Assembly: GCA_017161305.1 (NCBI GenBank)
Contig: CP031518.1
Location: 1,922,001-1,986,000 of the forward strand
DNA length: 64,000 bases
Reading direction: 5' to 3'
Source of the DNA: Treponema ruminis
GTDB lineage: Bacteria; Spirochaetota; Spirochaetia; Treponematales; Treponemataceae
The notes beneath the pieces are model-generated. The model was not told the origin of the DNA and did not search any database. It was given only the letters and a program-made list of their open reading frames with translations. Below, in pieces: positions 44,525 through 48,574 of this stretch (position 1 is the first letter of the stretch; each line of letters opens with the position of its first letter). Made by a program: the position numbers and the translations under genes.

Positions 44525-47074
44525 ATGAGAAAACTGACAAAAAAAATATTTGCCCTGCTCGGCTCGTTTGCCCTTGCGGCGGCTCTGATTTCCTGCGGCG
44601 ACATTGCCACAGGAGACGAAACACAGAATCTGAGTGAAACACAGGGAAAAGCCCTGGTTATCGTAAATATTGAAAGCGGCCTGCGTTCTGCCACCCTGCT
44701 TCCAAGCGACCTCACGGAAGATAAAATCACAGAGGTTGTGCTCCGTGCAAAAAAAGTTGAGGATGACCCAAAAAGAACCGCAGATCCGTCAGATGGATTT
44801 GATGTTTACCGTGTGTGGACAAGCTCAGAATCACAAACTGCAATCTCACAGATGAAAGCCACTACGGATATTATCGTTGACATTGCAACTTATGACTTTG
44901 AGCTTCTCCTTTATAAAAGTTCTGGCGAAGGCGGCTCTATTCTCTGCGAGAGTGCAAAACTTACCCAGACAATGCACTTGGGCAACAACACTCTCAACTT
45001 TGCCGCAAAATACGTTTCAGACGATAGTGCTACGGGCAGCCTCGAAGTCTATTTCAAATTTGAAAAGAAAGACTATGTTTCTGACATTAGAGTAAAACTT
45101 ATGGACTTTCAGGAGTTCACTAAGACTAACATGGGTGAAGATGATAGTGGTTATGTTTATGCTTACAGACATAGCGAAGCCAGCACCGATGAGACATTCA
45201 AAGAATTGTACAGTAAGACAGGTCTTGAACCAGGTGATTACGTTCTCTTTATTTTGGTATCTGAAATCACGCCAGAGGTTCGTGAGGTTGAAACTTCCCG
45301 GCTTATTAACGTATATCAGAAACTCGTCCGCATCGCCCCATTCTGCAAGACTTTTGCAGAGATAAGCTTGGACGATTTGAATACTGATTACACAGTAAGC
45401 TATGTGTTGCCGGAAAATTGTCCTAAGCATAAGTTTTCACAAAGTCGTTATACAAGACATTATCCATTGATTCTTCCTTCGAAAGACGACATGAAATGGC
45501 CATTCCACAAATTCATCGGCTGGTATGTTAACGAAAACTATGAAGGCGAACCTGTTTACTACATAGAGCAGGGAACAAAAGGCGACAAGACATTCTATGC
45601 GAAATTCGAAGAAGACAGCCTGCTTGTCATAGATGATATTTCTACTCTTGATACGTTGGGTGAGCAACTTGCAGCTGCAAATGAAGCCGGACTAAAATCC
45701 GTTACAGTAAAAATCACGGACAAAATCCCCCTCGATCCGCTCGGTGAAAACTGGATGAAAGATGCCAGTGTTTATAATGAGTCTTCGCGTAACATGGAGT
45801 ATAAATATACAAGTAACGCATTTGCTCAAATTACCAGTGTTCTTGAAGGCTTTATGAAGAGCTCCTCTACCAGTGATAGTGGAGAATATAACGGAATGAA
45901 GATTGAGCTTGACCTTACCGAAACAGGTATTTCTTATCTTCCGACTTATGCATTTAGTTTTAGGAGTTTAAGGGGCGATAGCTCGGATTGGAGGGATGCA
46001 GATTTTGGCTGTCTGACAGGTCTAAAGCTTCCTGATACGGTGACAGCCATACTTCAAGGTGCACTGCAAGGTACAGATATTACATCTTTTGAAGTCCCTG
46101 CGAATGTTACAGGAATAGGTATTGATGCATTTTATAGATGCTCGAATCTCAAAAGCATTACGATTCCTGCAGGCGTAATTGAAATAGGCGTGGAGGCATT
46201 CGAGGGTTGTAATAGCCTTGAGGTTGTCGACTTTGCAGAAGAAAGTAAGTGCACAAGTATCGGGAAGTGGGCATTTTGTGAATGCTCGAATCTCAAAAGC
46301 ATTACGATTCCGGCAGGCGTAACTGAAATAGTCGATTGGGTATTCGCTGGTTGTGATAACCTTGAGGTTGTCGACTTTGCAAAAGGAAGTAAGTGCACAG
46401 CTATCGGGAAGGGGGCATTTTGTGACTGCTCGAATCTCAAAAGCATTACGATTCCTGCAGGCGTAATTGAAATAGGCGTGGAGGCATTCGAGGGGTGTAA
46501 TAGCCTTGAGGTTGTCGACTTTGCAGAAGGAAGTAAGTGCACAACTATCGGGGAGGGGGCATTTTCTAAATGCTCGAATCTCAAAAGCATTACGATTCCT
46601 GCAGGCGTAAGTGAAATAGGCGAGGCTGCATTCGAAGATTGTAATAGCCTTGAGGTTGTCGACTTTGCAGAAGGAAGTAAGTGCACAGTTATCGGGACGA
46701 ATGCATTTTATGGATGCTCGAATCTCAAAAGTATTACGATTCCTGCAGGCGTAACTGAAATAGGTATGTCTGCATTCGAAGATTGTAATAGCCTTGAGGT
46801 TGTCGACTTTGCAGAAGGAAGTAAGTGCACAACTATCGGGGAGAGGGCATTTTGTGAATGCTCGAATCTCAAAAGTATTACGATTCCTGCAGGCGTAACT
46901 GAAATAGGCAATTATGCATTTGACGAGTGTGAAAATCTTACAGAAATCAACTTTGCAGGCACAAAAGAGCAGTGGGGGAGCATAAAAAAAGGTTATAATA
47001 TTTTCCCTGCTACGGTAAAAGAAATCAAATGCACAGATGGAGAGACTAGCTATACTTATGTCGGGGGGAAATGA
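44525..47074 (+). CDS. BspA-type leucine-rich-repeat lipoprotein
   Basis: An 849-residue lipoprotein (ALISC, Cys24). The N-terminal 350 residues are beta-rich, with an InlB-like turn (FHKFIGWYVNENYEGEPVYYI). From about 495 come BspA-type leucine-rich repeats (LKLPDTVTAILQGALQGTDITSFEVPANVTGIG...). The core is a 48-residue double repeat (CSNLKSITIPAGVTEI...CNSLEVVDFAEGSKCT...) with copies starting at 46139, 46283, 46427, 46571, 46715 and 46859, exactly 144 bases apart and nearly identical in DNA. The last residues (EQWGSIKKGYNIFPATVKEIKCTDG) match the LRR exit segment of the preceding gene. ACACGAGGAGATG precedes the ATG. Third gene of the set. Confidence 0.85.
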   Translation: MRKLTKKIFALLGSFALAAALISCGDIATGDETQNLSETQGKALVIVNIESGLRSATLLPSDLTEDKITEVVLRAKKVEDDPKRTADPSDGFDVYRVWTSSESQTAISQMKATTDIIVDIATYDFELLLYKSSGEGGSILCESAKLTQTMHLGNNTLNFAAKYVSDDSATGSLEVYFKFEKKDYVSDIRVKLMDFQEFTKTNMGEDDSGYVYAYRHSEASTDETFKELYSKTGLEPGDYVLFILVSEITPEVREVETSRLINVYQKLVRIAPFCKTFAEISLDDLNTDYTVSYVLPENCPKHKFSQSRYTRHYPLILPSKDDMKWPFHKFIGWYVNENYEGEPVYYIEQGTKGDKTFYAKFEEDSLLVIDDISTLDTLGEQLAAANEAGLKSVTVKITDKIPLDPLGENWMKDASVYNESSRNMEYKYTSNAFAQITSVLEGFMKSSSTSDSGEYNGMKIELDLTETGISYLPTYAFSFRSLRGDSSDWRDADFGCLTGLKLPDTVTAILQGALQGTDITSFEVPANVTGIGIDAFYRCSNLKSITIPAGVIEIGVEAFEGCNSLEVVDFAEESKCTSIGKWAFCECSNLKSITIPAGVTEIVDWVFAGCDNLEVVDFAKGSKCTAIGKGAFCDCSNLKSITIPAGVIEIGVEAFEGCNSLEVVDFAEGSKCTTIGEGAFSKCSNLKSITIPAGVSEIGEAAFEDCNSLEVVDFAEGSKCTVIGTNAFYGCSNLKSITIPAGVTEIGMSAFEDCNSLEVVDFAEGSKCTTIGERAFCECSNLKSITIPAGVTEIGNYAFDECENLTEINFAGTKEQWGSIKKGYNIFPATVKEIKCTDGETSYTYVGGK
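46139..46920 (+). repeat. Six 144-base tandem repeats (LRR units)
   Basis: Units start at 46139, 46283, 46427, 46571, 46715 and 46859 (last partial). Long stretches such as TGCTCGAATCTCAAAAG are identical in every unit, implying recent expansion or gene conversion. Confidence 0.9.
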
Positions 47075-47449: not shown

Positions 47450-48319
47450 ATGACAGAATCTATTTTCCACCCAAAGCCAGTTGACGAACTCACATTCACA
47501 GACGACGGCATGTTTCAGGCGGTCTTACGTGATCCGGATATTTGCGCAGAACTCGTCGAAAGGTTACTTCACATCCGCGTGAATCATGTCGAATACCCCG
47601 AACTTGAAAAGACAATCGCCCCCTACTACACCACAAAAGGCGTTCGGCTCGACGTTTACATCAAGGACACTGATAAAATCATCGATGTTGAGCTGCAATC
47701 TTACCCGCAGGAAGCACTGGGAAAACGCACTCGATATTATCAGAGCATGATTGACATGGACAGTCTAATGAAAGGTCAAGACTATTCTGAGTTGAAAGAT
47801 AGTTACATTCTATTCATTTGTAAGCATGATCCGTTCAAAGACGAAAACAAAAACTTTTACGGACTTCCATGCTACACATTCAGGAACATCTGCGAAGAAA
47901 ATCCTCTCGTAAATTTAAATGACAAATCCCTCAAGCTCATTTATAATGCAAGTGCATACGAAAAAGAAGTGGACGAGCGAATCAGATCGTTTCTACACTT
48001 CATCCACACGAACGAACCAGGGAAGGACGATTTCTCGAACCGACTTTCAGCTTTGGTTGAGAAAATCAAGGATAATGAGATCTTCAGGAGGGATTACGCC
48101 GCTATGAACTTACACGACAGAGATTTAACACGAGCCGCTAAAAAAGAGGGAATTATACAGGGAGCTGCAGAAGCAAAATTTCAAGCAGCTAGAAATTTGT
48201 ATGCAAATGGTATCTCCCAGGAAATAATCTCAAAATCGCTGGATTTGCCTTTGAACAAAGTTTCTGAGATCCTTGGGCAAACTACAACGAAAAATCCAGG
48301 AGGGATTACGCCGCTATGA
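47450..48319 (+). CDS. Rpn-family PD-(D/E)XK nuclease with internal-start C-terminal module
   Basis: A 289-residue member of the Rpn/PDDEXK_2 family (recombination-promoting nuclease, often labelled transposase). The active site is complete in the form used by this family: Asp68 (GVRLDVYIKD) and Glu81-x-Gln83 (DVELQ). AAGGAAG precedes the ATG. Inside the gene, an AGGAGG at 48086-48091 precedes an in-frame ATG at 48104 (residue 219). This would give a separate 71-residue C-terminal product (MNLHDRDLTRAAKKEG...). In E. coli Rpn genes an internal start makes such a short form, which inhibits the toxic full-length nuclease. The stop codon overlaps the next ATG (ATGA). Confidence 0.85.
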   Translation: MTESIFHPKPVDELTFTDDGMFQAVLRDPDICAELVERLLHIRVNHVEYPELEKTIAPYYTTKGVRLDVYIKDTDKIIDVELQSYPQEALGKRTRYYQSMIDMDSLMKGQDYSELKDSYILFICKHDPFKDENKNFYGLPCYTFRNICEENPLVNLNDKSLKLIYNASAYEKEVDERIRSFLHFIHTNEPGKDDFSNRLSALVEKIKDNEIFRRDYAAMNLHDRDLTRAAKKEGIIQGAAEAKFQAARNLYANGISQEIISKSLDLPLNKVSEILGQTTTKNPGGITPL

Positions 48320-48350
48320 ACTTACACGACAGAGATTTAACACGAGCCGC
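48085..48350 (+). repeat. Direct repeat of the Rpn internal-start module
   Basis: 48085-48138 and 48297-48350 are identical (CAGGAGGGATTACGCCGCTA and onward). A third degenerate start, ACGCCGCTATGAATTTA, lies at 48516-48532 and gives only seven codons before a stop. Confidence 0.85.
48104..48319 (+). CDS. Predicted internal Rpn short form (antitoxin-like)
   Basis: In frame with the C-terminus of the nuclease gene. It begins with MNLHDRDLTRAAK and is 71 residues, helical and charged, with a final helix-turn-helix-like stretch (ANGISQEIISKSLDLPLNKVSEIL). The Shine-Dalgarno AGGAGG is 12 bases upstream, a rather long spacing. Its independent start is supported by the downstream gene, which repeats the same start module and the same length. 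Function inferred from E. coli Rpn short forms. Confidence 0.55.
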   Translation: MNLHDRDLTRAAKKEGIIQGAAEAKFQAARNLYANGISQEIISKSLDLPLNKVSEILGQTTTKNPGGITPL

Positions 48351-48531
48351 AAAGAGAGAAGGTATTCTAGAAGGTGCTGCCCAAAAAACTATTGAGGCGG
48401 CAATAAACTTTTATGCAAATGGAGTATCGGAAGAAATAATTGCCAAATCGTTAGGTTTGCCTCTGAGCAAAGTGTCAGAACTTCTGAATCAACAATCAAT
48501 GAAATTTTCAGCCGGGGCTACGCCGCTATGA
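48316..48531 (+). CDS. Stand-alone duplicate of the Rpn C-terminal module
   Basis: A 71-residue protein identical over its first 12 residues (MNLHDRDLTRAA) to the internal Rpn product and similar throughout (ANGVSEEIIAKSLGLPLSKVSELL; final ATPL versus ITPL). The 54 bases covering the ribosome site, ATG and first codons (48085-48138) recur exactly at 48297-48350, a period of 212 bases. As 212 is not a multiple of three, the copy is in another frame and starts at an ATGA overlap, so it is translated separately. It lacks the nuclease domain and is best read as an extra antitoxin-like subunit. Confidence 0.65.
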   Translation: MNLHDRDLTRAAKREGILEGAAQKTIEAAINFYANGVSEEIIAKSLGLPLSKVSELLNQQSMKFSAGATPL

Positions 48532-48574
48532 ATTTAGGCTTGAGGACGTGAAAGTTCATTCCTAACAAAAAAAT

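Follow-up and report, generated by a model that had tools for sequence, protein, structure and literature searches.

Probable exchange of C-terminal tail cassettes at the internal antitoxin start of Rpn nuclease genes in Treponema and Escherichia coli

Overview

The C-terminal tails of Rpn nucleases are probably exchangeable cassettes that are joined to the nuclease core at or near the internal antitoxin start, and the modules trailing behind some rpn genes are then parked or displaced tails, often in the course of decay. A tail would be both the end of the toxin and, read from the internal start, the whole of the predicted antitoxin, such that recombination at or near the start module would put a different tail on the core and toxin and antitoxin would change together. 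The previous or alternative tail would stay behind with its own ribosome-binding site (RBS) and ATG. In the window, by which we mean the entire stretch of 64,000 nucleotides of Treponema ruminis that was analysed, the nuclease would bear one such tail (W1), with another (S) parked behind it. The comparisons of sequences that point to this comprise the anatomy of the locus, apparent selection on the codons of the internal start, the decoupling of cores from tails and a tail replacement at one orthologous locus. To these are added tails that one genome has on the nuclease and another has parked, as well as the one- and two-module states of rpnE in Escherichia coli.

The Rpn gene and its repeated start module

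The gene at 47450..48319 (forward strand, as for all features of the window given here) codes for a 289-residue RpnL-like protein. Its placement in the Rpn nuclease family by the initial annotation is borne out by matches to the profiles TIGR01784 (E 5e-30; 105.2 bits against a curated cut-off of 52.1) and PF12784 (E 2.5e-12; 47.5 against a curated cut-off of 27.4). Within it we distinguish a core (residues 1-218) and the tail W1 (the last 71 residues). In an alignment of 39 sequences including that of the window, D68, E81 and M219 are invariant and Q83 is present in at least 90%; D68, E81 and Q83 are the likely equivalents of D63, E82 and Q84 of RpnA. A sequence search of the PDB yielded no convincing match to the window nuclease, the best (E 0.57) bearing an unrelated name, and neither the nuclease nor the orphan S matched the PADLOC defence models at E 0.01, a result that bears little on an anti-phage role. 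The genome of the window is a single contig of 2.9 Mb, and its nearest named relatives among the matches listed are Treponema and uncultured Spirochaetaceae assemblies, many of them labelled as coming from the rumen. An 849-residue ORF with tandem 144-base repeats adjoins the nuclease gene (44525-47074), and we take it to resemble a leucine-rich-repeat surface protein.

The first start module (48085..48138) comprises the internal RBS AGGAGG, an ATG at 48104 and the first codons of an RpnS-like product. This ATG is in frame with the nuclease and yields 71 codons; the predicted intragenic product (48104..48319) has a tail that we class as type B and ends in ...GITPL, its stop being the ATGA of the next module. 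That second module (48297..48350; CAGGAGG...GCCGC, as in the first) is identical to the first in 54 of 54 bases at an offset of 212, and carries an RBS and an ATG at 48316 that overlaps the nuclease stop as ATGA. It opens a free-standing RpnS-like ORF of 71 residues (tail S; 48316..48531), which we read as a parked or displaced tail cassette from its match to a tail in another genome and from the tail tree (see below). A third, decayed module (48498..48536) has lost its RBS and its ORF has shrunk to seven codons, and its ATGA still serves as the stop of ORF S. All of this agrees with the initial annotation, which had described the internal ATG, the 54-base repeat at 212 bases, the translatable RpnS-like ORF opened at an ATGA and the decayed third start. 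The two 212-nucleotide copies are 74% alike overall, and the 147 bases of the repeat unit that follow the 54-base module have 97 matches between W1 and S. The action of gene conversion or other recombination on the start module, as suggested there, is also supported. A chance match of the two start modules is ruled out by 54 of 54 identical bases within a 212-base repeat.

Codon choice at the internal start

We collected 112 distinct Rpn genes, a sample of such genes taken from the matches listed, close relatives first, in which many of the Treponema loci come from fragmented metagenome assemblies. The codons that spell the RBS are strongly biased in these genes. Thus, Arg(-6) is encoded by AGG in 63 of 78 cases, as against 158 of 993 Arg codons in the rest of these cores (16%; binomial p 2e-36); Arg(-5) is AGG in all 25 cases among the 112 genes (p 1e-20) and Ser(-5) is AGT in 34 of 35, as against 211 of 1151 elsewhere in the cores (18%; p 3e-24), with these binomial p-values treating genes as independent, which their kinship breaks. 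The internal start codon is ATG in 98 of the 112 genes. Of the 112, 77 have 5 or more bases of an RBS core (AGGAG, AGGAGG or GGAGG), which at five control places occurs in 0, 0, 2, 0 and 0 genes (of 111-112 each); with 4-base pieces included the count rises to 99 of 112, but the control place at -420 then scores in 55 of 111. Given the bias of the RBS-spelling codons and the prevalence of ATG, selection seems to act on internal initiation in this group of relatives, which supports the internal start that had been proposed for the nuclease gene, and initiation at the window ATG at 48104 is to be expected.

The genes-within-genes of E. coli Rpn resemble the window gene in combining a PD-(D/E)XK nuclease, an internal start and a variable C-terminal antitoxin (PMC10327210), and by analogy RpnS products are probably made in Treponema and may act as antitoxins there. 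Both groups also have 4-residue repeats in the first helix and separate downstream rpnS genes (ypaA and rpnC in E. coli; PMC10327210); by inspection, both an alignment of 39 tails and E. coli rpnE show variation in 4-residue repeats that start 8-20 residues past the internal Met.

Decoupling of tails from cores

The nearest relative of the window gene (L102) has a core amino acid identity of 0.96 and a start module identical in 54 of 54 bases, and its tail identity is 0.33; the 92.6% DNA match between the two stops at 48154, and their cores differ with dS 0.24 and dN 0.018. Among the 104 of the 112 genes that were long enough for the correlation of identities, core identity correlates with tail identity at r 0.23 and with module identity at r 0.74. 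In pairs with a core identity of at least 0.80, 122 of 191 have a tail identity no higher than the 90th percentile among distant pairs, and such distant-like tails occur in 26 of 57 pairs at a core identity of at least 0.90 and in 3 of 15 at one of at least 0.95, where 5 of 15 have a tail identity of at least 0.70. Very close pairs thus keep their tail more often, and there is a slight clustering of tail labels on the core tree.

Labels assigned by eye (81 of the 104 genes, 23 being unlabelled) require 41 changes on the core tree, with a mean of 48.0 and a minimum of 43 in 200 shufflings. Automatic labels, for which 98 genes were long enough, require 40 changes with 7 clusters (shuffled mean 43.7, minimum 40), as against 6 changes (shuffled 20.6, minimum 17) for an equally long core control of 40 residues left out of the tree. 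With 12 clusters the tails require 49 changes (shuffled 53.7, minimum 48) and the core control 11 (shuffled 22.7, minimum 21). Residues -6 and -5 used as a control trait, whose columns are also within the tree, require 12 changes (shuffled 34.7). By these counts the tail scarcely follows the core tree in the 98 Treponema rpn genes.

To screen for orthologous loci, pairs were listed by flank similarity and seven were aligned. In one of these (L119 and L123, from UBA1233 and Tb.RUG.153) both flanks are orthologous and the tails are of type B and type C, respectively. Identity is 92-96% in the core, 72% over the last 100 bases upstream of the ATG, 100% in the first 36 bases from the ATG, 53% in the tail and 82-98% downstream from 60 bases past the stop; because it also falls before the ATG, the breakpoint need not be the module itself. 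Four of the seven pairs (L116/L125, L127/L149, L144/L145 and L049/L051, the last with little upstream sequence) keep their tail type. Two others (L111/L130 and L120/L132.1) have unlike tails and were left uncounted, their downstream flanks being unaligned near the gene with weaker matches further off.

Origin of the orphan tail

The tails W1 and S are of the same type, share 66% amino acid identity and align without gaps to the end of the HTH-like part. They differ at about 26 of 33 synonymous sites in codons 12-58, where dN is 0.215 and synonymous changes are in excess (about 26 of 46; p 1e-6). In codons 59-71 nonsynonymous changes prevail over synonymous ones (omega 3.1), which we read as an effect of the frame overlap with the next module. 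Over 239 bp, S shares 93.7% identity with the tail at the nuclease position in L154 (assembly RUG13083), a nuclease remnant with an internal deletion whose core runs straight into the S-like tail. The tree of 21 type-B tails groups S with the L154 tails (support 96/90), and the path from S to the L154 tail is 0.064 as against 0.68 to W1. The suggestion in the initial annotation that the locus had duplicated its own antitoxin therefore does not stand as it was put: with S so much nearer to the nuclease tail of another genome, the second module does not appear to be a plain copy of the first. This Treponema example of a tail attached in one genome (L154) and parked in another (S) is a match between positions that may or may not be orthologous.

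We consider it fairly unlikely that W1 and S instead go back to an old tandem duplication in place, in which gene conversion homogenised the start module only and no tail was imported. The shared tail type and the constant 212-base period would be expected from such a duplication, and an AU test with W1 and S held as sisters gives p 0.116 (120 columns). From the tail type and this p-value, a very old W1/S duplication with subsequent loss of W1 in the relative is possible; that, too, would amount to a change of the nuclease's tail. However, duplication in place leaves unexplained both the tail replacement at L119/L123 and the unlike tail types that occur within one array at four loci (L106, L105.1, L126 and L132.0).

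Since their divergence S and the L154 tail have accumulated 5 synonymous and 9 nonsynonymous changes (omega 0.54; p 0.22 against neutrality). Because these recent changes fit neutrality, they give no sign that S is retained by selection. In L154 (4001-4710), both tail modules behind the internally deleted nuclease core are still open.

Trailing modules across the Rpn loci

The initial annotation had proposed comparing the number of trailing modules across Treponema rpn loci. In a blast search of the DNA within 1500 bases downstream of the 112 genes, 19 had matches, four of which were dropped (in L110.1 and L080.0 the match is to the complete nuclease gene that follows; in L124 and L044 inspection found no module). 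This leaves 15 of 112 genes with a trailing start module and 97 without one, the latter including two with trailing tails, L011 (module past the 1500-base limit, with an IS3 between) and L063 (found by protein). As 97 of the 112 genes are without a trailing copy, such a copy is not needed for tail exchange.

The arrays mix tail types at the four loci named above. For instance, the order in L106 is tail A, tail B and a shortened frame, and in L105.1 from the same assembly (RUG13083) it is tail B, tail A and a truncated module. Seven tails, W1 and S included, run into the next module and take its ATGA as their stop, which suggests that the unit is a tail together with the module that follows it. 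In the trailing modules of L106 and L105.1, core codons for YNASAY are fused directly to the start module, and in the second trailing module of L132 a longer piece of the core begins at about the same place; these junctions might mark a preferred breakpoint.

The trailing modules might also be functionless debris of tandem duplication or tail exchange that is soon lost, a reading that we take seriously and hold to be somewhat improbable. At five of the 15 loci (L104, L015, L121, L105.0 and L132.1) the trailing modules are remnants only, truncated or decayed, just as the third copy in the window has decayed; the recent changes of S fit neutrality; and NCBI flags ypaA and other trailing frames of E. 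coli as pseudogenes or incomplete. Conversely, at 10 of the 15 loci one or more trailing tail frames are still of full length, although L084 has no ATG at the usual place and L075 has lost part of the module. In E. coli the trailing frame is open with an RBS in all six two-module strains, and the K-12 product has been detected (PMC10327210). The synonymous excess between W1 and S in codons 12-58 also argues against mere debris, though it may predate the parking of S. The random decay of downstream copies, which by the initial annotation would count against its reading, is thus seen in part: five loci hold remnants only and the changes in S are indistinguishable from neutral ones (p 0.22). With tail exchange as the preferred reading, a parked module may provide protection or a ready alternative, beyond being a mere remnant.

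One- and two-module states of E. coli rpnE

The initial annotation inferred a free-standing second antitoxin behind the rpn gene; an arrangement of this kind was already reported in E. coli for rpnE/ypaA and rpnC (PMC10327210). In K-12, rpnE and ypaA have the start half in common and differ in their ends. We compared 10 E. coli strains, nine of them hand-picked for varied match patterns from 40 of 5371 matching genomes, and proportions among them carry no meaning; UTME-10 was also picked and was left out, its rpnE gene being cut by IS2. In all six two-module strains the nuclease carries tail 1 and is followed by tail 2, and in all four one-module strains it carries tail 2. Thus, at this one locus the same tail is attached in one strain and parked in another. 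The trailing frame is open in six of six two-module strains, with the RBS AAAAGGAGAGATT and a 12-nucleotide gap. In K-12, NCBI annotates RpnE as inactive and ypaA as a pseudogene, and in the other five two-module strains it flags the trailing frames as incomplete; YpaA of K-12 has been detected as a protein (Zhong et al. 2023, PMC10327210).

Across 5426 genomes the tail-1 segment occurs in 3099 and the tail-2 segment in 5363, these being counts of segments and not of arrangements. Over 1365 upstream positions K-12 and TW14359 show 9 differences, yet their rpnE states are not the same. On a tree of the upstream DNA of the strains the rpnE state has changed at least three times, with several forks lacking resolution and recombination able to mimic such changes.

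These strains also bear on the reading, which we judge unlikely, that the trailing ORF is a duplicated RpnS kept as a second antitoxin in trans that neutralises the same nuclease and raises the dose. S is an intact 71-codon ORF with an RBS and an ATGA overlap, and YpaA is detected in K-12 (PMC10327210). An equal number of repeats is needed for inhibition in RpnC, where one added repeat abolishes it (PMC10327210), and W1 and S align without gaps through the helix region to the end of the HTH-like part, which makes cross-inhibition of the window nuclease by S possible. Against this, RpnAS and RpnBS of E. coli each block their own RpnL only, without cross-inhibition (PMC10327210), and by eye the nuclease tail and trailing tail differ in helix repeat number in six of six two-module strains. 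S itself is nearer to the nuclease tail of another genome than to W1, and its recent changes fit neutrality.

Comparison with known systems

In its way of working, and not by kinship, tail exchange in rpn genes would have a close parallel in the tip displacement of Rhs systems, where immunity is a separate gene, unlike the Rpn trailing tails, which would themselves be the antitoxin. Rhs genes likewise have a conserved core with exchangeable C-termini decoupled from it (Jackson et al. 2009, PMC2935791), and fragments further downstream in which the end of the core recurs with other tips, some of them decaying (PMC2935791); these fragments are mostly described as being without a start (PMC2935791), whereas the Rpn trailing tails have their own RBS and ATG. 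The arrays of orphan immunity genes in the type VI secretion system (T6SS) of Vibrio cholerae are similar in that, as one displacement follows another, older protective genes stay on behind the pair in use (Kirchberger et al. 2017, PMC5361080). The effectors there are injected, and each is encoded apart from its immunity gene (PMC5361080), whereas Rpn acts inside its own cell.

Within the family, insertion, deletion and fusion of rpnS are reported among E. coli strains (PMC10327210), and a recombinational origin has been proposed for the downstream rpnS copies, with the origin of the C-terminal variation left open in the account given (Zhong et al. 2023, PMC10327210). What is described there for E. 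coli Rpn, in the parts consulted, is variation in repeat number and gain or loss of rpnS, and not an exchange of tail types (PMC10327210). In the window, by contrast, the trailing tail differs from the nuclease's own, and Treponema shows exchange of whole tails as well as arrays with two or three modules. The YhgA-like Rpn proteins of K-12 have a conserved nuclease core and a variable C-terminal tail, as here (Kingston et al. 2017, PMC5350276); the authors suggest that the tail may set the DNA sequence preference (PMC5350276), and the parts of that account consulted describe neither tail exchange nor trailing modules (PMC5350276). The literature on Rpn among the matches listed, at the level of titles and abstract openings, did not describe tail exchange.

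Exchange of tails at the start of the antitoxin, presumably by homologous recombination at the module, would connect the C-terminal variation of Rpn with the downstream rpnS copies and would show a way for an intragenic toxin-antitoxin pair to change its specificity with no unprotected intermediate. A more speculative extension, which we put forward tentatively, would make the start module the joint at which cassettes recombine. One exchange would then re-specify both toxin and antitoxin, and the replaced antitoxin could still be translated from behind the gene, allowing the cell to live through the switch of tails; the nuclease, for which a recombination-promoting effect is reported, may even set off the exchange. 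E. coli, in which both states of rpnE are common, offers a setting for the question of tail exchange.

Other Rpn loci in the genome of the window

Four of the seven Rpn loci viewed in the genome of the window have a trailing module, namely the window locus, L004, the paralogue of the window nuclease in L011 and the Rpn gene upstream of it. Two (L005 and L006) were seen to be without one, and in L008 a weak match resembling a tail lies 1.05 kb downstream. In L011, an IS3-type element (about 1735-3282 of L011, in G000:C1, minus strand) lies within the tail of the paralogue and cuts the nuclease frame; beyond the element is a truncated start module, with sequence that looks like the end of a type C tail. 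The right end of L105.1 also recurs behind this paralogue, with 96.5% identity over 285 bp. Just upstream of the paralogue is a different Rpn-type gene (L011 4332-5346, minus strand) with its own trailing tail copy of 80 residues, the start half of which is near-identical.
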